Assembly: GCA_031288475.1 (NCBI GenBank)
Contig: JAITRJ010000034.1
Coordinates: 34,208-98,207 of the forward strand
Origin: Helicobacteraceae bacterium
GTDB lineage: Bacteria; Campylobacterota; Campylobacteria; Campylobacterales; SZUA-545
Direction: 5' to 3'
Length of the DNA: 64,000 nucleotides
Part shown: positions 49,877 through 64,000 of the stretch, in pieces
How positions within the stretch are numbered: position 1 is the stretch's first letter
Layout of the letters: each line of letters opens with the position of its first letter
Made by a program: the position numbers and the translations under genes
The notes under the pieces: model-generated
The model's database searches: none
Told to the model about the DNA's origin: nothing
Seen by the model: only the letters and a program-made list of their open reading frames with translations

Positions 49877-50644
49877 CTACTCTTCGCTCACGGCAAACAG
49901 AACTTCATATTCCAGATAGAGGTTAGGATACGAATTAATTAACTCCCGCGCCTCTTTGAACGAGAACATTCTGATTCCTCCTCCAATGCCGCATTTTCTG
50001 ATATAGCCAAACAGTTCCCGCCGCGAATCGAACGAAATCGTAAACTCGCCGCGCCAAAACCTGGCATCAAATGCCCGCGAAATCGAATGTTTTGCTTCCT
50101 CAAAAGAGCGCAGCCTGCTTTTTTTCCCCTTGTGAAGCTCTCTAAATGTGCCGTCGGTGAAGATGGCAAAAGCTGCCCTTTCCCCAAACTGGCTGATCGT
50201 CTCAAGCGTCCCATCCAGATCGTCCGCCCATTGCAGCGCGGAAGACGAAATGATCAGGTCAAACGGCGCGTATCCGCCTAGTTTGAGCATCTGTCCGGGC
50301 AGATTAAAATCAATTTGCAAAACGGCTGTTTTTTCGTTTTTTGGGTGAAGTTCGCACATTTGGGGAGCAAAATCTGTAGCAACAAATAAATCGTACTCCC
50401 AATCGATCAAAGAATGTACAATTCCGTTCCCGCAGCCTATGTCCAGAATTCGTCTAGGCTTGGAAAGCAGGCGCGCAATCAGCTCCCGCGCCACACTTCT
50501 TTGCAAACCGTTCAGCTCGGCGTATCCCTGCGCGCGATCGTTGAAACGGCGAAAAACAGAGTTCAAAAACAGCCTTCTAAGAGAAAATGCGCTAAAAATC
50601 CACAAGTATTTTAATATTTTCCTGATGATCGGAGTCTGTCTCAA
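49877..50644 (-). CDS. Class I SAM methyltransferase, BioC-like
   Basis: 'RRILDIGCGNGIVHSLIDWEYDLFVATDFAPQMCELH', 'FDLIISSSALQWADDLDGTLETISQF'. Confidence 0.85.
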   Translation of the reverse strand: MRQTPIIRKILKYLWIFSAFSLRRLFLNSVFRRFNDRAQGYAELNGLQRSVARELIARLLSKPRRILDIGCGNGIVHSLIDWEYDLFVATDFAPQMCELHPKNEKTAVLQIDFNLPGQMLKLGGYAPFDLIISSSALQWADDLDGTLETISQFGERAAFAIFTDGTFRELHKGKKSRLRSFEEAKHSISRAFDARFWRGEFTISFDSRRELFGYIRKCGIGGGIRMFSFKEARELINSYPNLYLEYEVLFAVSEE

Positions 50645-50958
50645 TGATCACACCACTCTTATTTGTTCAGTTTGGGCTGGCGATTTTGATCGTCATCGTC
50701 GTGTTGCTGCAAAAAAGCTCCAGCATTGGGCTGGGCGCGTACAGCGGAAGCAACGAGTCGTTTTTCGGCTCAAAGGGACCAAACGCCTTTCTCGCGAAAA
50801 CTACCGCCGTACTTGGAGTTTTGTTCGCGGTTAATACCATAGCGCTGACCTATCTCTACTACGCGGATCGCAACGCTTCTGTAGTTGACAGCGCCATCGC
50901 GCAAGAGGGTGATGGCGTTCCTCCCGTACCGGCGCTGCCGGAAGTTCCGCAGGAGTAG
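50644..50958 (+). CDS. secG: Preprotein translocase subunit SecG
   Basis: 'VVLLQKSSSIGLGAYSGSNESFFGSKGPNAFLAKTTAVLGVLFAVNTIALTYL'. Confidence 0.93.
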   Translation: MITPLLFVQFGLAILIVIVVLLQKSSSIGLGAYSGSNESFFGSKGPNAFLAKTTAVLGVLFAVNTIALTYLYYADRNASVVDSAIAQEGDGVPPVPALPEVPQE

Positions 50959-50961
50959 CCG

Positions 50962-51519
50962 ATGCTTCAACCAATTTACGCCGACGCCAAAGAGCATATG
51001 CAAAAATGTATTGAGGCATTAAAGCATGATTTTTCCACTCTGCGCACCGGCAGGGTTTCTGCTAAAATCATTGAAAGCATTAAAATTGATTACTTTGGCA
51101 CACCCACGCAGATCAACGCGCTTGGTTCGCTCACTACGCCTGATGCCAATACGATCATCATCACGCCGTGGGATAAAAGCGCGCTTAAGGAGATCGAGAA
51201 AGCGATCAACCTCGCCAATATCGGAGTAAACCCGTCCAACAACGGAGCGGGGGTGATTCTGGCGTTTCCACCGATGACACAAGAACAACGCAAAGAGAGC
51301 GTTAAACACGCCAAAGCTATGGCGGAAAAGGCAAAAATTGCCGCCCGTAATATACGCCAGGACGCGAACAACAAGATCAAAAAGCTCGAAAAAGAGAAGC
51401 AGATCACCGAAGACGAGAGCAAAAAGGCGCACGAGACGGTGCAAAAACTCACCGACGAAACAATCGGGAGTATCGACAAGCATCTGGCGGATAAAGAAGC
51501 GGATATTCTTAAAATTTAG
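50962..51519 (+). CDS. frr: Ribosome recycling factor
   Basis: '[74 protein letters not shown]'. Confidence 0.98.
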
Positions 51520-51532
51520 CGGAGATTGCAGT

Positions 51533-52162
51533 ATGAATATAGAGGCGATCTACGAGAGTGCGGACGCATTGCTTAAAGGGCACTTTCTGCTTAGCAGCGG
51601 CAATCACAGCGGTTTTTATCTGCAATCAGCGAAAGTGCTGGAAAATCCCAAAAACTGCGAAAAACTATCCAAGGCGCTGGCGGATATGATTCGCGCCGCC
51701 AAAATAGAGGCGTCGCTGGTTTGCGCCCCCGCGCTGGGCGGCGTTATAGCGGGCTACGAGCTTGCGCGTGCGCTGGGCGTGCGCTCGATCTTCGCCGAGC
51801 GCGAAAACGGAGAAATGATATTGCGGCGCGGCTTCACGGTGGCAAAGGGGGAAAGGGCGATCATCTGCGAAGACATTGTCACCACAGGAGGATCGGCAAT
51901 GGAAACGGCTAAGCTGATAAAAGCGCAAGGAGGCGAGGTGACAGCGTTCGCGGCGCTGGCAAACCGCGGCTTCTGCCGCCGCGAAGGGGGAACTAACGGA
52001 GACAGTTCCTGCAAACTGAACAAGAATATTCCTCTCTTTGCCCTCGCCGATTTCGCGTTTCCTGTCTACTCCCCCGATCGGTGTCCGCTCTGCGCGACAC
52101 ATGGCAAACCTACTAAACCAGGAAGTCGTCCGCCCTCCGTTCCGCAACCGAAAGCTCAATAA
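51533..52162 (+). CDS. pyrE: Orotate phosphoribosyltransferase
   Basis: 'LLKGHFLLSSGNHSGFYLQSAKVLENP', 'ALGGVIAGYELARALGVRSIFAERENGEMILRRGF', 'AIICEDIVTTGGSAMETAKLI'. Confidence 0.96.
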   Translation: MNIEAIYESADALLKGHFLLSSGNHSGFYLQSAKVLENPKNCEKLSKALADMIRAAKIEASLVCAPALGGVIAGYELARALGVRSIFAERENGEMILRRGFTVAKGERAIICEDIVTTGGSAMETAKLIKAQGGEVTAFAALANRGFCRREGGTNGDSSCKLNKNIPLFALADFAFPVYSPDRCPLCATHGKPTKPGSRPPSVPQPKAQ

Positions 52163-54038: not shown

Positions 54039-56093
54039 CTACTCAATATCCTCAACCGCAAACTCCACCTTGCAGCTCTGTCCGCTTTCGTCCATTACAA
54101 CAAGCTGATAATCGCCATTTTTAGTAAAGCTGTAATTGAGGAATTCGTTCTCGCCGTTTTGGGCGATCAGATCACCGTTAAGGAACCACCAGCGCGTACC
54201 GCTGCCGCCCTGAGAACTGATCGTCGGAATTAAAAAAGTCTCCGATTTGTGCTTTGTGAAGACAGCTCCGTTCTTGATCTCTTTAATAAACAGCGGTCGA
54301 ACCAACTCGCTATCTTCCGATGGCGGGCATACCTTGCTTTTTTTCGGCAGACGGTGGCTGATCTGCTCGCCTGCGTCCAGCCACGGGCTTAAAGCGACAG
54401 GCCACAGCGCAAGCTGTTTTTTCACCGCGTTCTTGCAGTCAAACGCGACACGCTCGTGTCGATCGTCCTCATAGTAGGTGTACCAGCCGCCCATAAGAAA
54501 ATCCTGCGCGCTTGATAACAGCGTAGGCGGCGTAACGCCATTCACTGTCCACGCTCGTTTCTCCACGCGGCAGTTTGGATCGTTCTTTGGCAACGGCTGG
54601 CCGCCAGGCCAGCATATTGACGCGCTGCCAACAGAAGCAGGCATTTCGTCAAGAGCGTTGTTGACGATAAAGGAGCTGATCGCCCGCGACTGCAAATAGT
54701 TGTTTATACGAAGCAGAAAAGGAACGGCAACCGCGGCGCCAAACTGTTCCGCCACCGGAGTGCCATCTGGTCTTCCTACCCAGACGCCGATAATGTAGCG
54801 CGAACTTACTCCCACCGCCCACGCGTCGCGAAATCCGTAGCTCGTGCCCGTCTTGTACGCCATAGAAAGAAAACCGTACCGGTAAAACGCCGGATCGGCT
54901 TCGCCGGAGAGCATACGTCTCGTTACCCACGCCGCCCCTTCCCCCACAAAGTTATAAGAGATAAGTTCGTCGTTCTTCAAGTAACGCAGCGGCGATATAC
55001 TGCCTCCCCGCGCGAAAGCGCTGTAAGCGCTTACAAGCCGATCAAGACTGATTCCCGCGCCGCCTAGAATAATCGAAAGATTCGGCTCGCTGTATCTGGG
55101 GAGCATCAGCTTAATACCCGCGTTTGAGAGTTTGGCGGCAAATCTTTTTGATCCATACGCTTCCATAAGCTGTACGGCGGGCAGATTCAGCGATTTCTCC
55201 AATGCTTCGGAAGCGCTTACCGCACCGCTGAAGGCACTGCTGAAGTTCTCAGGCCGATAGCTGGAGACGCGCGGCGTATCAAGCAGCAACGATTCAGAGT
55301 GAATCAGCCCCTCATCAATGCCAAGGGCGTATATAAACGGCTTGAGCGTCGAACCAGGGGAACGGATGGCGCTTACCATATCGACATGCCCAAAGCGGCT
55401 TTCGTCGTTCATATCCGCCGATCCCACATACGCCCTGACCGCCATATCGGTGTGATCGACCACCAGAAAGGCGAGAGAAGTCGCGGGGCGAAGCGCCGAT
55501 TTGGCATTCCGCGCCATCTCCTCAAGACTCTCCTGCATAGACGCGTCAATATTGGATTCGATCACCCGATCGCCGGTCATCAAAAGCGCCCGCCGCGCGA
55601 AAAGCGGGGCAAGCTGCGGTACAAAACGGGGCGACAGATATATATCCTCCTCCTTAGCGTCTTTCACCTGTTCTTCGCTGAAAATGCCAAACTTCAAAAG
55701 CCGATTCAGAACTTTGTTGCGCGCGTTCTGCGCCTCTTTAGGGAAGCGATCGGGGCGCAACCTGCTTGGCGCCTGCGGCAGGGCGACCATCAACGCTGCC
55801 TCCGCGCGGCTCAGTTCAGACGGTTCCTTGCCTAAGTACGACCACGTAGCCGCTCGGATACCCTCAATTGTCCCGCCAAATGGCGCGCGGTTCAGATAGA
55901 TCGTCAATATCTCATCTTTGCTCAGATGCCATTCCAACTGCAAAGCGCGCCATATCTGACGTATCTTGCCAAAAATGGTTCTTCCGTGCGGCTCTATCAG
56001 CCGCGCTGTCTGCATAGTAAGCGTGCTGGCGCCGGAAACGATTCTTCCGCTGGAAAGATTTTGAAAAGAGGCACGGATGACAGAGACGGGATT
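54039..56093 (-). pseudogene. pbpC: Penicillin-binding protein 1C, 5'-truncated by prophage insertion
   Basis: 'NPVSVIRASFQNLSSGRIVSGASTLTMQTARLIEPHGRTIFGKIRQIWRALQLEWHLSKDEILTIYLNRAPFGGTIEGI...' plus transpeptidase 'SPGSTLKPFIYALGIDEGL' and the PbpC C-terminal domain. The frame meets a stop inside prophage DNA right before 'NPVS'; signal anchor and N-terminal GT51 motifs are absent. Confidence 0.85.
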
Positions 56094-56105
56094 TGTAAAT
56101 TACAC

Positions 56106-56246
56106 TTTGAAATTGGACTATGATTCAACAGAAATTGGACTCCTCCCGGAAAACCACCCTCGAAAAAGTCCAATTCCTATTGAATTTTTGTTTCACGGGG
56201 CGTTTCACGCCCCCGCCGTCTCCGCGTAAATAGTCCAATTTCTGTT
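56106..56246. repeat. Four prophage-end repeats (transposase-binding-site-like)
   Basis: TTTGAAATTGGACTA (56106-56120, +), ACAGAAATTGGACT (about 56128-56141, +), AGTCCAATTCCTATTGAAT (56167-56185, inverted), TAGTCCAATTTCTGTT (56231-56246, inverted); core GRAATTGGACT. Confidence 0.8.
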
Positions 56247-57040: not shown

Positions 57041-57642
57041 TTTGCGCCTCCGGCTAATCTGTTATTGGTAATCGCGGGCTCAAATGTCGCCGCCTCGCTC
57101 TCCTGCCTTATCCGCGTAACAACCCCATTATCCAGATCGCCTAAAACCTGTAAAAACAGCTTAACGCCAAGAGGCGCAAGCTCCCGCTCCCACAGCGATC
57201 TTGCCGTATCGCCCTCTCTGATAAATACAGCCTCCCTTGCCGCTATATCCCCTGTATCGGCTCCATCGTCGAGCCAATAGACCGATCCGCCCGTAATAGC
57301 CTCTCTCATGCGTAAAGCCCACGCTATAGCGTCTCTGCCCCTGTGCCTTGGCAGCAAAGAGGGGTGATAGCCCAGCGCCCCAAACCTTGCCTTTGCCCTA
57401 GCGCACGCCGCTATAAAGGCGTGGCAGTGAGCGGAGAGAATAACGTCCGCTCCCGCTGATATATCAGCCTCCCCGATAATCGAATTGTGTATAGATAAGG
57501 GTATATCAGCGCGTTTTGCCGCGAAAGCTAACCTGTCGCCGGTTGAGGGCGCCGAAACGCCCGTAACAATATGCCCAGCGCCTATAACCGCCCCAAACAC
57601 CCGCCCGCCGAAATACTTTTGCCCGCAGATATGAACTCTCAC
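57037..57642 (-). CDS. Phage formyltransferase-fold protein (FMT-like)
   Basis: 'LGYHPSLLPRHRGRDAIAWALRMREAITGGSVYWLDDGADTGDIAAREAVFI' matches the formyltransferase HPSLLP / DxGxDTGxI motifs; ATGA overlap with the methyltransferase gene. Confidence 0.88.
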   Translation of the reverse strand: MRVHICGQKYFGGRVFGAVIGAGHIVTGVSAPSTGDRLAFAAKRADIPLSIHNSIIGEADISAGADVILSAHCHAFIAACARAKARFGALGYHPSLLPRHRGRDAIAWALRMREAITGGSVYWLDDGADTGDIAAREAVFIREGDTARSLWERELAPLGVKLFLQVLGDLDNGVVTRIRQESEAATFEPAITNNRLAGGAK

Positions 57643-58772
57643 GCCGCCGCCTCCGCTCCTATATACCGAAAGCCCTGCACTGCCCTGAAATGCCCGCCGT
57701 AACCTGTTGAGCCGCCCCGGGAGGCGCCGCGTCTTTGCATCGATTGGGTGATTGTCGCCGCGCTCTTGCTTTTGCTGCCGCCGTAAAGAGCGCCGCTTAC
57801 CTGCGTCCAGCGTTTATCGCGCCTGAGCGCCGCGCACAATCCGGGGTGCGAGGTGTGAAAGAGCGTGGGAAGCCTGAGGTTGTAGCGGTTGCTGCCCTTA
57901 AGCCACTCCCCGCAAACGAAATTAAGAAACCTTATACCGACACCAGCGCCCTGCCACTCTGGCATCACCACCAGACGGCAGGCTCTCGCCTCGATCATGC
58001 CCTGCCGCGTTGAGACGGCAAGATGAGCGACGGGATCGTTATCAATAAACCCCACATAATTTGTCGCCGCTATCATAATCGGCAGGTCTAAATAGTGATG
58101 CGGGCTAAAGTAACGCCATAGGCTCCAGTCGCCGCGCCTGATCTCAAGCTCAATCGGCGGTCTGCGAAGTAAATCCTTTGTGTGAGATAAACGCATACCG
58201 TCGGTATCCAGCACCCAATCGGGATTAAGCCACTCCAGTACATCATAATGGCAGGTGAGCAGGATGCACCTGCCGCCAGTCCGCCTCCACGCCTTAGCAA
58301 AGGCAAGAGCGCCTATTTTGGCGATCTGGCGATCAACAACCGATGTAAACTCGTCGATTACGATCTCGTTTGGGGCTTCGGCTACCGCTCTGGCTAAATC
58401 CGCCCTAAAACGCTCCCCAGTCGATAAGACCTTATAAGGTCTAAGCCACGCGGGAACGCTCCCAAGCCCTACGGCGGCAAGGGCGGCGGTCGCGGCGTTA
58501 AAGTCTCCCTCAGGCGCAATCTCATCAATGATTGGTTTATCGCCCCATACAGGGCGGTAGATTTTATCCTCCCCGAAAGCCATTGCGCCTAAAGAGGATT
58601 TGCCTGTGCCGGAGCGCCCCACAATCACGCCGATTTGCCAGCTTTGATCCTCAATCGGCAGATCAGCCTCAATGTTAAAGCTTGCCCCGCTATCTACGTT
58701 AAACAATGATTTAACCCTTGCCGCGCGGTAGGAGCTAAAATCCCCGCAGTGGTGGTTAACTGATACTCTCAT
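57639..58772 (-). CDS. ABC-type ATPase fused to GNAT acetyltransferase-like domain (COG2401-like)
   Basis: Walker A 'GRSGTGKSSL', signature 'LSTGERFRADLARA', Walker B 'NEIVIDEF', 'LLTCHYDV' H-loop; GNAT 'CRLVVMPEWQGAGVGIRFLNFVCGEW' and 'TLFHTSHPGLCAALRRDKRW'. Confidence 0.9.
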   Translation of the reverse strand: MRVSVNHHCGDFSSYRAARVKSLFNVDSGASFNIEADLPIEDQSWQIGVIVGRSGTGKSSLGAMAFGEDKIYRPVWGDKPIIDEIAPEGDFNAATAALAAVGLGSVPAWLRPYKVLSTGERFRADLARAVAEAPNEIVIDEFTSVVDRQIAKIGALAFAKAWRRTGGRCILLTCHYDVLEWLNPDWVLDTDGMRLSHTKDLLRRPPIELEIRRGDWSLWRYFSPHHYLDLPIMIAATNYVGFIDNDPVAHLAVSTRQGMIEARACRLVVMPEWQGAGVGIRFLNFVCGEWLKGSNRYNLRLPTLFHTSHPGLCAALRRDKRWTQVSGALYGGSKSKSAATITQSMQRRGASRGGSTGYGGHFRAVQGFRYIGAEAAA

Positions 58773-58933
58773 ACCACCACCACCTTAAGCTTTAGCCCCT
58801 GCTTTAACAGCCGGTCATAGAGCTTTTTCTGTTCCTCCTCGCTCTCGCAGATTACCACCACGCCGTACTGCTGGCGGTACTTGTAACCATTGGCGCCGAG
58901 TTGTTTTTTAGGCGCTTTTGCCTCTTCACTCAT
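58769..58933 (-). CDS. Small (54 aa) basic conserved-looking phage protein paired with the ABC-GNAT gene
   Basis: MSEEAKAPKKQLGANGYKYRQQYGVVVICESEEEQKKLYDRLLKQGLKLKVVVV; AAGGAGG Shine-Dalgarno just upstream. In frame with a longer ORF (58769-59194) that reads through the poly-G tract. Confidence 0.75.
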   Translation of the reverse strand: MSEEAKAPKKQLGANGYKYRQQYGVVVICESEEEQKKLYDRLLKQGLKLKVVVV

Positions 58934-59123
58934 TTTTCCCTCCTTTTTTGGCGCAAAAACGGAATACGCCTTGCTTAGTAAATTGCGGCGGTTGGCTTTT
59001 AGTAGGGTTGGCTGTCCCTCGCGGCGGCGCAATCCGCCGCGCTGGTTTTTGATTGACGCGGCGCCGACCGGCTTGTTTGGCTTCCCGCCGCGAAACAGGA
59101 AAGAGCAGATAGCGGGTATTACA

Positions 59124-59140
59124 CCCCCCCCCCCCCCCCC
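59124..59140. repeat. Homopolymer C17 (+) / G17 (-) tract, candidate phase-variation tract
   Basis: 17 consecutive C on the + strand, confirmed by translation of the overlapping minus ORF (AAT GGGx5 GGT GTA = NGGGGGGV). Confidence 0.85.
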
Positions 59141-59190
59141 ATTTTGGAGCGGATAAAAAGAGACTTTTGAAAAAGGCGCTTGAGGGGTTA

Positions 59191-60114
59191 TCACGCTAAG
59201 CCCTCGACCTCGAAGCTTAAATCGCTGATCTCCTCGCGGCTGAGCTGGAGCGAAAAATCCCTATATACGCCATAGACCGATAACGAGTTAAAACGGGCGA
59301 GATCGTCGCCTATAAAGACGGTGGGGCGGGATCGTATCTGGCTCATAATATCGGCGACCTGATCGAAACGGGCGGTTTTGACAAACACCTCGAAACTCAC
59401 GCGCTTAGAGTAGGCTCTCTCCTTAATATAGATATTGCCGCTCTCGTCGGCTGCCTTGATTGAGTAATCTATAATGCTTACGGAGGGCGGGACGCGGGTC
59501 TCCCCTATATCAACCATAATCCCCGCTATGATCTTGCCGATGGAAAAGCCGCCTGTTAAAGCGGTTAATCTGATACGAACACCCGCTACCCTCGAGGGAA
59601 CCTCAAATAGTAAATCCTGCGCCGAGCCTGTTGAGACCAGCTCGCGAAAGAAGTAAGTTGTCCAGCTTACGGCCGGCTCATAAATGTTGCTTGACGCCCT
59701 TACCTCTTTGCTGAAAAACGGCGTGTCCCCAGCCGAATCGAATACCTCTAATGTAGCGGTGCCATTGAAACGCGCCAGGAATACGCCGCCCACTTTGAGC
59801 GCCCGAATCTCAAGGATCGATCCGGAGGCGTAAGAGCTTAACGTGCTTACAGAATCATCGAATACCTTATACGCCTCGCTCGCCCCTTTGTTAAGCCAGC
59901 TAAGCGATCCGTCCGCGGGATCGTCGCTGGTATTAACGCCAGCCTCAAATATATAATCAATCGACGCAACGTCAATCGCGGCTTTACTGGCGGCAACTGA
60001 GCGGATTACCTTATCCCCCGCGCTGTAGCTTCCCTCCTGCCACTCTGGTACAGTGCCGCTCCCGATCGCTTCGCTGGCGATTACGGTTAATGGTTTAGGG
60101 TATAACAGCATCAT
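59191..60114 (-). CDS. Phage tail structural protein (hypothetical)
   Basis: ORF directly downstream of the tape measure gene with ATGA-type overlap; beta-rich sequence. Confidence 0.75.
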   Translation of the reverse strand: MMLLYPKPLTVIASEAIGSGTVPEWQEGSYSAGDKVIRSVAASKAAIDVASIDYIFEAGVNTSDDPADGSLSWLNKGASEAYKVFDDSVSTLSSYASGSILEIRALKVGGVFLARFNGTATLEVFDSAGDTPFFSKEVRASSNIYEPAVSWTTYFFRELVSTGSAQDLLFEVPSRVAGVRIRLTALTGGFSIGKIIAGIMVDIGETRVPPSVSIIDYSIKAADESGNIYIKERAYSKRVSFEVFVKTARFDQVADIMSQIRSRPTVFIGDDLARFNSLSVYGVYRDFSLQLSREEISDLSFEVEGLA

Positions 60115-63100
60115 GTTAAGCCTCCGGCGGCGGCTTCGGCGGCAAGCTCCGCGCGGGCTTCGTAGCGCTCAATAGCCGCTAGCCTTTTGGCCGATTCGGC
60201 GTTAATCGCTTTCTGCTCTTTGAGTTCGTCGAGCATTTGTTGCAGGAGCTCCGCTGTCCGCGCGGCGCTCTCGTCATACTCGGCGAGCCTCGCGAGGTTA
60301 TCCAGATAGTCCGCGTCGCTGGCATCGCCGCCAAAGCGCAGGGTGGCAATCGCCTCAATTAGATTATTAAGCTCGTCCTGCGTCTTTGCTCCGCTTGCTA
60401 ACGCTAAGGCTCTCTTTGCGGTATCGGACGTGCCGCTGAAACCTATCTGATCAATGGAGAGCGAGGGGGTCAGAGCGGCTACCAGATCGCTAATCGTCTG
60501 GTTGGTGGCAAGGTCGATATTGTCGCCCACAATCCTCACGCTTAATATATCCGCGCTTAGATCGATAGCGCCCGCAATCTGCGCCAGCTCCCTTTCAAGC
60601 GCCGATTTGCCCGTAAAGTCATAATCGCCAAGCACCCCCTGAAACGCCCGCGCCGCCTCAATATAACCGCCCGTCACATCCTGTACGTACTGCTGGGTTA
60701 AACCGCCCCTGATTGCGCCTGTACCGTCGTATAGATTGGATAAGCCAATCCGCGCCGTTAAATACTGCCGTTGCAGAAACTCCTGATCGTCGCTGCGACC
60801 CTCTGTTATCAGATCGCGCGCTTGATCGGCAAACGAGCGCAACCCGTCGGCAAATGATCTGAGCGAGCTTGCCGCGCTCTCAACGGCGCTGTCGGTCTGG
60901 CTCAGCCACTCCGTAAACTCCGCCTCGCTGGATAACCGCTCAAGCTGGGCGTTGGCGTATGCCTTGATTGCCTCCACATTAGCCGTTATCGCCTGTTTAA
61001 GGCTTTCCAATGCGGCGGTCAGGTCATCAACGTTAACCGCCGCGCCGTATCTGCCGATTATCGCCTCAAGGTCAAGATTTTCAAATAGGGCGGCAGCGTC
61101 TCTGGCGCTTAAATCCTTAAGGTATTGGGCGCTCTCCCCCGCCTCGCCGATAATTGTTTCGGTAAGAGTAATCCCGGCGTTTTCCAGCGCGTCGTTATAG
61201 ACTGCGGCTATATACTCTGCCGCGCTGGAGAGATCAAGGTACGAGCGATCAAGATTATAGGTCAGGCTCTCACCTCTCAAGGCGGCGCTCAGCGCGTCGA
61301 TGCCTTCGGTTGCCGCCAGCAGAGCGCCCATCTTTTCGTTAAAGTTTTTCGCGCCCTCAAGCGTCAAACTGCCGTATTTATCCGTTCCGAACTGCTTTAA
61401 AAACGCCGCCAGATGCAACTGCGCCTCTGTTAGCTGGGCGTAGTAAATGGTAGTTTTTTTAGCCGTTCCCAGCAGGGTCTTTTTCTTTTTAACTTCGCGC
61501 CCGATTTCTACATTAAATTTGATGATGTTGTCGTAATAGCTATCAAACCATCCCAGCGCAAACTCCTGCGCCGCCTTGACGTACCGCTCGCCTGAGCTTT
61601 GGGCGCTGAGGAATTTAGCCGCCCCCAGCGAGCCGTCAAAGCCCTTGCGGGAGATTGTGTTATAGCCTAGGACGGAGCCGATCAGCTTTTCGAGCGAGCC
61701 CGAGCCAAAGATACCGCCTACGGCGCCAAACAGGGCGGCGGAGAGCCCGCCCGTAATGCCGGGCAGAAGGGCGGCTAAACCGCCCGCTAAAATTTTGCCC
61801 AGATCGCTTAGCCTATAGCCGCTCTCCCCTGACATATCGGCGTTTTGCGTCGACGCCCGCGCCGCGTTAAAAGTGGTATTGACGCCGCCGAAACGCTTAA
61901 CCAGCGTAAAGTAAGCCTTAAACGCCTCGGCGCTCTCACGGGTATTATCGGCGATCTCCCGCAGTAAGTCCCTTTGGCTCGTCATCTCCCATTGGGCGGT
62001 CATCTCGCCTATTACCAGCGCCGCCGCCGCGCCTACGCCCATTGCCGCGCCCGCTGAGGCTAAACCCCCCGCCATTGCGCTTATATTTCCCGCTGCCGCC
62101 TGCGCCTGTATTGAGGCGCTGATCTGAGCGGAGACGCTTGACGCCGCCGAGCTAAGCGCCGCGCTTAATATGTCCTTGCCGCTGATTGAGCCGCTTTTAA
62201 CGCCGGATACAACCGCGCCGCTTATATCGTCAGCGAGATTGCCGACAAGGTTGTCGGCGAAGGTTTTAGGCGTTTGTTTTTCGATAATGCCCTGCTGTTC
62301 TTTCAGCGCGTCAAGCTCTTTGTTGAGGAGATCGACGCGATCGCCGCCGGTAATCCCGCTCTTTTCCAGCGCGGCAATCTCTGCCGTTACACCGGCAATG
62401 GAGGTCTTAACCTGCAGTAGCCTCTTCTGGCGGTTAGCCTCCTCTTCGCTTATCGCGCCCGCCGCCGCCAGATTATCAAGAGACAGCTCCTCGATCTTTT
62501 GCTTTTCCTGCAGGAGGCGTATCGTGGTCTGCGCCGCCTTTTCCGCCTCGTCCTTGTAAAACTTAAGTATTTCGGCGCCCTGCCCCGCCCGTATCAGTTC
62601 CGTTATGCGCTTAAGCTCGTTTTCGTCGCTGGCGTAGAGCGCGTTTGCCTCCGCTTGGTAGGCGGCGTACCTGGCTTCTATAGCCTTAGCTTCGGCCTGC
62701 CCAAGCGAGGTTAGCTTCTCCTCCAGCTTCTGTCGATCCTGATCGGCTTTATCGTTAATTTTGTTAAGCTCAGCGGTATATATCTCTCCTATCAGTTTCA
62801 TCGCCCGTTTAAACTCGTTTGTGTTGGGGGCGACTTTGGCGGCAAGCTGATCGATCATCCCCTGCCGCTCTCTGTTCAGCTTTTCGAGGTCGGATAACAG
62901 GAGCTTGTCGCGCTCGGTCTGCAGTTCTTTAAGGATACCTGCCGCGTCTTCGGGGTTGTATGTTTTAAGAGGGATCTGCGCTTTTTTTGGATCGGTAAAC
63001 GCCTGTATCGCCCGTATCCGCTCCTCGTACTCGTTTGCCTTCCTCTCCGCCTGCTCCCACTGCGCCTCCTGCTCAAGGGATAGCTTCTTCTGCCTGCCGA

Positions 63101-64000
63101 GCATCATGTCAATAACAGAGACGTCGGCTGATTGGAGATCGGTTAATATCCTTAGCTGTTCGGCTTTTTTCTCCCGCAGCCCCTCTACCAGCATCTCGCG
63201 CTCCGCTTTGCCGTATTTACGCAGGCTTTCTACCGCCCCGTCCCAGCCGTCGGCGAGTTCTTCGGCAGCGCTTTTCGCAAACAAAAAGTGCGAGGCGATT
63301 GCGGTTAATCCCGCAATCACAATGCCCCAAGGGGCGGCTTTAAACGCCTTAGACAGGGCGCCCTTCGCGGCGCTCAGCGCGGCGGTGGCGCTGGCTGTGG
63401 AGAGCGTCGCCGCCCTCATCGCGGTCATCGCGCCCGTTACGGATTTTACGGCGGCGGCGATAAAGGCAAATACCGCCGCCTTGTTGCGGACTGCAAGCAA
63501 AGCCGCGCCGAATACCGCCGCGTCTTTGGCGAGCGAGGCAAAGGCCGATGGAAGCGCCTTAATAAGCTCTTTATTATTAACTAAAAGCTCGTTAAAGCTC
63601 CGCATTCCTTTGGTAATCGCTTCAAATAAAGGCTTGGTTAACTCCCCGCGAAGCTCTTCAATCGTCGTGTTCAGCGAGGCAAGCGAGGCGTTATAGCCCT
63701 TTGCCCCCTGCGCGGCTATATCGGGTATATCGGCGAGCTTAGACATTATAAGCTCGTAGGTTTTACCATTTTCAGCCGCTTCTTTAAGGGCTGTATTGGT
63801 TAAGCCCAGCCCTGAAAGAAACCGCCCGAAGTCGCTGTTGGCTAGTATTGTCCCTTTTGCTGCTCCGTCGATGCCCGCTATGAGGGCGTTAAACTCTACC
63901 CCCTGTATCTTTGCCGCCTGCGTTAATCTTGCGGAGGCTTTAGCCGCCTTGTCCATACTCATACCGACAGAAAGAGCGCCCGGCAGGAAGGTCTTAAACG
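60111..64000 (-). CDS. Phage tape measure protein (5' end beyond window)
   Basis: At least 1283 aa with long helical stretches, hydrophobic segments 'AKDAAVFGAALLAVRNKAAVFAFIAAAVKSVTGA' and Ala/Gly-rich regions. The frame stays open to the window edge (FKTFLPGALSVGMSMDKAAK). Confidence 0.88.
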   Translation of the reverse strand, partial: FKTFLPGALSVGMSMDKAAKASARLTQAAKIQGVEFNALIAGIDGAAKGTILANSDFGRFLSGLGLTNTALKEAAENGKTYELIMSKLADIPDIAAQGAKGYNASLASLNTTIEELRGELTKPLFEAITKGMRSFNELLVNNKELIKALPSAFASLAKDAAVFGAALLAVRNKAAVFAFIAAAVKSVTGAMTAMRAATLSTASATAALSAAKGALSKAFKAAPWGIVIAGLTAIASHFLFAKSAAEELADGWDGAVESLRKYGKAEREMLVEGLREKKAEQLRILTDLQSADVSVIDMMLGRQKKLSLEQEAQWEQAERKANEYEERIRAIQAFTDPKKAQIPLKTYNPEDAAGILKELQTERDKLLLSDLEKLNRERQGMIDQLAAKVAPNTNEFKRAMKLIGEIYTAELNKINDKADQDRQKLEEKLTSLGQAEAKAIEARYAAYQAEANALYASDENELKRITELIRAGQGAEILKFYKDEAEKAAQTTIRLLQEKQKIEELSLDNLAAAGAISEEEANRQKRLLQVKTSIAGVTAEIAALEKSGITGGDRVDLLNKELDALKEQQGIIEKQTPKTFADNLVGNLADDISGAVVSGVKSGSISGKDILSAALSSAASSVSAQISASIQAQAAAGNISAMAGGLASAGAAMGVGAAAALVIGEMTAQWEMTSQRDLLREIADNTRESAEAFKAYFTLVKRFGGVNTTFNAARASTQNADMSGESGYRLSDLGKILAGGLAALLPGITGGLSAALFGAVGGIFGSGSLEKLIGSVLGYNTISRKGFDGSLGAAKFLSAQSSGERYVKAAQEFALGWFDSYYDNIIKFNVEIGREVKKKKTLLGTAKKTTIYYAQLTEAQLHLAAFLKQFGTDKYGSLTLEGAKNFNEKMGALLAATEGIDALSAALRGESLTYNLDRSYLDLSSAAEYIAAVYNDALENAGITLTETIIGEAGESAQYLKDLSARDAAALFENLDLEAIIGRYGAAVNVDDLTAALESLKQAITANVEAIKAYANAQLERLSSEAEFTEWLSQTDSAVESAASSLRSFADGLRSFADQARDLITEGRSDDQEFLQRQYLTARIGLSNLYDGTGAIRGGLTQQYVQDVTGGYIEAARAFQGVLGDYDFTGKSALERELAQIAGAIDLSADILSVRIVGDNIDLATNQTISDLVAALTPSLSIDQIGFSGTSDTAKRALALASGAKTQDELNNLIEAIATLRFGGDASDADYLDNLARLAEYDESAARTAELLQQMLDELKEQKAINAESAKRLAAIERYEARAELAAEAAAGGLT

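Follow-up and report, generated by a model that had tools for sequence, protein, structure and literature searches.

A long poly-G run in the probably untranslated leader of a prophage DNA-modification cassette in a Helicobacteraceae genome

A 17-bp poly-G run stands at the head of a prophage-borne DNA-modification cassette in this genome, and the locus raises the question of whether the length of the run could control the cassette and, if so, through what. The run (C17 on the forward strand, G17 on the reverse strand, on which the cassette is read) occupies positions 59124-59140 of the window, by which we mean the whole 64,000-nucleotide stretch analysed here, and it is the only G or C run longer than 8 in those 64 kb. 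Under a first-order Markov model, 1e-7 to 3e-7 runs of at least 17 are expected per window, and the presence of a homopolymer far beyond chance at this position is confirmed. With respect to the cassette the Gs are on the sense strand, 190 nt upstream of a gene for a 54-aa protein; the run follows the last late gene of the prophage, precedes the cassette and falls outside every recognised gene. The first-pass annotation placed it just inside an ORF that starts with GTG on the stop of the tail gene and reads into the 54-aa protein, and this arrangement is seen in the sequence: the GTG (59194-59192) overlaps the TGA stop of the tail gene (59193-59191), and G17 begins 54 nt inside the frame.

The window forms one end of contig C48, 98 kb long, in a MAG of 1.25 Mb (58 contigs, 71% complete); on that contig the run is at 93331-93347, and its length of 17 is the MAG consensus. 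One explanation is that the run, or its length, was produced by sequencing or assembly, as the fragmentation of the MAG and the presence of runs at contig edges in other genomes might suggest. Indeed, another contig of this MAG, C35, starts with an implausible edge (positions 1-66: C36, one other base and C29) that is probably such an artefact. However, the run at the cassette lies ∼4.9 kb from the contig end with continuous genes on either side, and similar interior runs are present in three genomes of the same genus (g1), where they occur in gene classes commonly switched in this way. We therefore consider an artefactual origin of the run, or of its length, very unlikely.

To describe the genomic background of the run, G runs were collected by pattern search with a threshold of at least 11 G. 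This MAG has 15 such runs, including two that share a contig edge. Counts are higher in the remaining genomes of g1, the genus of this MAG, and in genus g6, at 22-48 per genome with some at contig edges, and none was found in the sister genera g2, g3, g4, g5 and g7 of the family. The runs of g1 lie in or beside genes for methyltransferases, radical-SAM enzymes, a family-2 glycosyltransferase (GT2), TPP enzymes, TonB receptors (plug domain), a short-chain dehydrogenase and signal-peptide proteins. In 8 of 34 interior cases the run is the junction of two gene pieces that are in different frames, compared with 9.5% of random points at the same loci, and although this enrichment is modest, the split genes look like contingency genes caught in the off phase. 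By a simple test, 18 of the 34 interior runs are neither crossed by nor splitting a long frame, a class that includes some runs near gene starts. As a separate observation, two TonB-receptor genes of genome G002 (L252 and L256) carry 14 G at the plug domain, with the frame broken at the run.

MutL (PF01119) was matched in none of 15 genomes of the family, compared with 11 of 14 control genomes. Because MutL was missing from all seven genera while the runs occur in two of them, its absence permits the runs but does not explain them, and it does not separate g1 and g6 from g2, g3, g4, g5 and g7. The contingency-type poly-G background supposed in the first-pass annotation agrees with these results, in that runs are enriched in g1 and g6, a number of host genes have a phase-variable appearance and searches for MutL gave no match in the family. 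Because long runs are a trait of the lineage, host genes are broken at them and no MutL was found, we infer that the run at 59124-59140 is itself probably unstable, that is, hypermutable.

The assignment of the cassette to a prophage, also made in the first-pass annotation, is upheld by the ends of the element. The right end (56094-56125) terminates in ...CA on the reverse strand, reading TGTAAATTACAC... on the forward strand, and the forward-strand sequence at 56094 (TGTAAATTACACTTTGAAATTGGACT) resembles the matching end on contig C56 (TGTAAAGTTGAGTTTGAAGTTGGACT). The pentamer AATCC/GGATT adjoins both prophage ends, on C48 and on C56; at the right end this 5-bp target duplication occupies 56089-56093, and it is repeated at the left end on C56. 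Outside the ends lie the halves of the host pbpC gene, encoding a GT51 penicillin-binding protein (PF00912), which is cut by the prophage: the 3′ part is at 54039-56093 on the reverse strand, and the halves cover PF00912 positions 45-177 on C48 and 10-49 on C56. Contigs C48 and C56 (1-171) are linked across the prophage by the split pbpC. Judged by its TG...CA ends and 5-bp duplication, the prophage is of the Mu-like transposable type; the same combination of ends and duplication has also been described for CMLP1 of Campylobacter. A search for a MuA-type transposase (PF02914) gave no match, with none in the controls either, and the left part of the prophage lies off this contig. Near the prophage, at 50644-52162, the host genes are ordered secG-frr-pyrE, as in Campylobacter and Helicobacter.

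At the right end of the prophage in pbpC, the late genes are followed by the cassette. A tape measure gene (phrog_10093; 60111-63998, reverse strand), cut by the contig end, precedes the last late gene, which belongs to the tail region (phrog_6278; 59191-60114, reverse strand). A second prophage in the same genome, on contig C47, has a phrog_6278 gene of 69% identity as its own last gene, with its right end within ∼150 bp of that gene, and the two elements share CAATTATT...CGGTTTAAC and AGTCCAATTTCAAAGT. Because this sister prophage has neither the cassette nor the run, both are accessory to the element. Further relatives of the late gene were seen: besides the copy on C47 (L223), one on C43 of the same genome, G000 (L224), is 36% identical, and two in g6 genomes (L226 on G011:C234 and L225 on G013:C89) are 42-45% identical; these related transposable-type prophages all lack the cassette, and no long G run lies close to the late gene in any of them. 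No relatives of the tail gene were found in viral contigs, in which the exact upstream flank of the run gave only unrelated chance matches, and no second copy of the prophage was found among the relatives searched.

The cassette comprises four genes on the reverse strand: the gene for the 54-aa protein (phrog_28816; 58769-58933), an ABC ATPase-GNAT fusion (phrog_11143; 57639-58772), a formyltransferase-like protein (phrog_9240, PF00551; 57037-57642) and a D12-class adenine DNA methyltransferase (phrog_56, PF02086; 56300-57040). With the fusion and its conserved small partner, which adjoins the ABC-GNAT gene in all 160 relatives, the locus is an ABC ATPase-GNAT system. It is phage-borne and has the same domain pair as the systems predicted by Iyer, Aravind and colleagues (cited in PMC7824862), for which coupling of a GNAT with an ABC ATPase is predicted to bring about an uncharacterised acyl modification of a DNA base (PMC7824862). 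Such loci are widespread (378 in viral contigs and 178 in genomes) but very rare in the order of the host, where they occur in 2 of 350 genomes, this MAG and one other with a distant fragment of the ABC-GNAT gene. A search for the cassette in 60 relatives and the 350 genomes of the order gave, beyond this genome, that fragment only.

Among the copies examined, a long G run precedes the small gene in this one alone: no G or C run of at least 9 was found in the leaders of the 160 related cassettes, and the six loci with runs of 9-10 carry them elsewhere. A function of the run is thus not a family trait. The suggestion of a phasevarion-like system in the first-pass annotation is not supported, because the run lies outside the methyltransferase gene and every recognised protein gene, 2.1 kb upstream of the D12 gene.

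A more specific proposal was that slippage would fuse or unfuse the leader ORF and the small gene at exactly 17 G. The fusion itself is real: with G17 the GTG frame stays open for 141 codons, through the run and into the 54-aa protein. The exactness is not, in that G14, G20 and G23 give the same fusion, as does any length equal to 17 modulo 3. With G15, G18 or G21 the frame stops 8 nt past the ATG of the 54-aa gene, and with G16 or G19 it ends after ∼25 codons. If the GTG leader were translated, the run could therefore act as a frame switch with three distinct states, in which G17 fuses the leader to the small protein, G18 ends at the start of the small gene and couples its translation, and G16 ends early. 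In addition to this arithmetic, the sequence GAGGG lies 6 nt before the GTG, the part of the leader after the run scores best in the GTG frame (0.14), and a frame open for this length occurs in just 3% of shuffles, although openness by itself says little about coding.

Despite these features, most of what we observed argues against translation of the leader. Prophage genes have a codon score of 0.399±0.159 bits per codon and their wrong frames one of about −0.25, whereas the leader scores 0.045, and the 18 codons before the run have a negative in-frame score. At least 80 open codons upstream of the small gene are present in only 20 of the 160 relatives, so that 140 have no such extension, and in the median relative the upstream frame closes at once. 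In the tail gene, the GAGGG before the GTG encodes the final Glu-Gly of the protein, and on C47 the sister prophage has the same GTG overlap without a gene following. Furthermore, the small gene has a Shine-Dalgarno sequence of its own, as the first-pass annotation had pointed out: GGAGGG at 58938-58943 (reverse strand), read from the sequence, 4 nt before the ATG at 58933. Because of the low codon score, the lack of an extension in 140 of 160 relatives, the explanation of the GAGGG and GTG overlap by the tail gene and the separate Shine-Dalgarno sequence, we conclude that the GTG frame is probably not a gene and that the 261 nt between the tail gene and the 54-aa gene (58934-59194, reverse strand) are probably an untranslated leader. 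A frame switch through the leader ORF thus appears improbable, and, if the leader is non-coding, slippage would alter an untranslated leader and no protein.

A run in an untranslated leader might still act on transcription or on the leader RNA. A promoter scan, to which a phage-activated late promoter would be invisible, showed no convincing −35/−10 pair around the run. The hexamer TGTAAT directly follows the run but is without the conserved A, and the best −35 match 15-20 nt upstream of it has 3 of 6 positions. A promoter like that of porA, in which the run would form the spacer, was accordingly rejected as a candidate, given this TGTAAT and the lack of a −35 match above 3 of 6 at that distance. 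The predicted fold of the leader RNA is not of unusual stability, the leader matched no family in Rfam, and no convincing terminator was found at the run. The lone strong hairpin in the leader (59020-59041), GC-rich and followed by TTTTT, is on the forward strand, so that it is terminator-like but points against the cassette. An effect of run length on the cassette through transcription or leader RNA is possible.

Two readings of the run remain to be weighed. The explanation we tentatively prefer is that the run is genuine, probably hypermutable, located in an untranslated leader and, if it acts at all, tunes the output of the cassette in a graded way. The run would sit in the 261-nt leader between the last late gene and the accessory cassette; slippage would change the length of the leader without changing any protein; and, if the run acts, altered transcription or leader RNA would change the amount of the cassette products by degrees. 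The case for function is drawn from context, because no promoter or RNA signal was detected and none of the 160 related leaders has a run. The same two results, together with the 18 of 34 interior genus runs that neither are crossed by nor split a long frame, are what would be expected if the run were a neutral passenger that grew in non-coding DNA at the cassette boundary of a poly-G-accumulating host and has no effect. On the other hand, this is a long, sense-strand run in a short leader that precedes an accessory modification cassette, a place where a change in length is likeliest to matter, and the rarity of long runs outside two genera, though all lack MutL, suggests that they are maintained by selection. 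Tuning of cassette expression is the most likely reading, with neutrality a serious competitor that is nearly as likely, and graded tuning by run length is best described as possible.

Comparison with known systems shows a type of run familiar from such hosts, here at an unusual location. Poly-G runs are abundant in Campylobacter, with G mostly on the coding strand and the largest number in C. upsaliensis (PMC539331). The present lineage resembles those contingency loci in having dozens of runs per genome, G on the coding strand and a similar host; however, the Campylobacter runs with known effects are in protein genes, whereas this candidate contingency tract is located ahead of a prophage cassette, in a leader that is probably not translated. 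In the porA gene of Neisseria, a poly-G promoter spacer sets expression through spacing (PMC3899988). The two cases are alike in that a poly-G run lies upstream of a gene and its length alone could set expression, but −35 and −10 elements flank the porA run and no convincing ones do so here.

A different parallel concerns the position of the cassette. The mom gene of phage Mu is a DNA-modification gene at the right end of the phage, expressed late and tightly regulated. The present cassette is likewise a modification locus and occupies the right end of a transposable prophage, although the enzymes are different (ABC-GNAT, formyltransferase and D12 methyltransferase) and Mu is not known to have a poly-G run. 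In the literature searched we found no direct precedent for homopolymer switching of modification genes carried by a prophage, which is not proof that there is none.

Read from sequence, then, the run is probably unstable and probably lies in the untranslated leader of a prophage modification cassette. A further step, which we regard as rather unlikely, is that a temperate transposable phage has adopted the slippage switching of its host, such that the run sets the level of the cassette cell by cell, with DNA modification and the encounter with restriction varying among lysogens and their progeny particles. If the run does tune the cassette, the phage would be using the contingency mechanism of the host to diversify the modification of its own DNA, and mixed phage populations in the face of restriction would be the consequence. 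Whatever the role of this run, poly-G runs number in the dozens in two genera of this uncultured lineage, a family in none of whose genera MutL was found, and their confinement to those two genera is a useful natural contrast when the origin of such runs is considered. As a side observation, a family of four similar lipoprotein-like genes of genome G002 (L228, L232, L234 and L236) was seen, each with a run of 14-16 C near the start, immediately before the signal peptide, and these may form a set of switched surface proteins.
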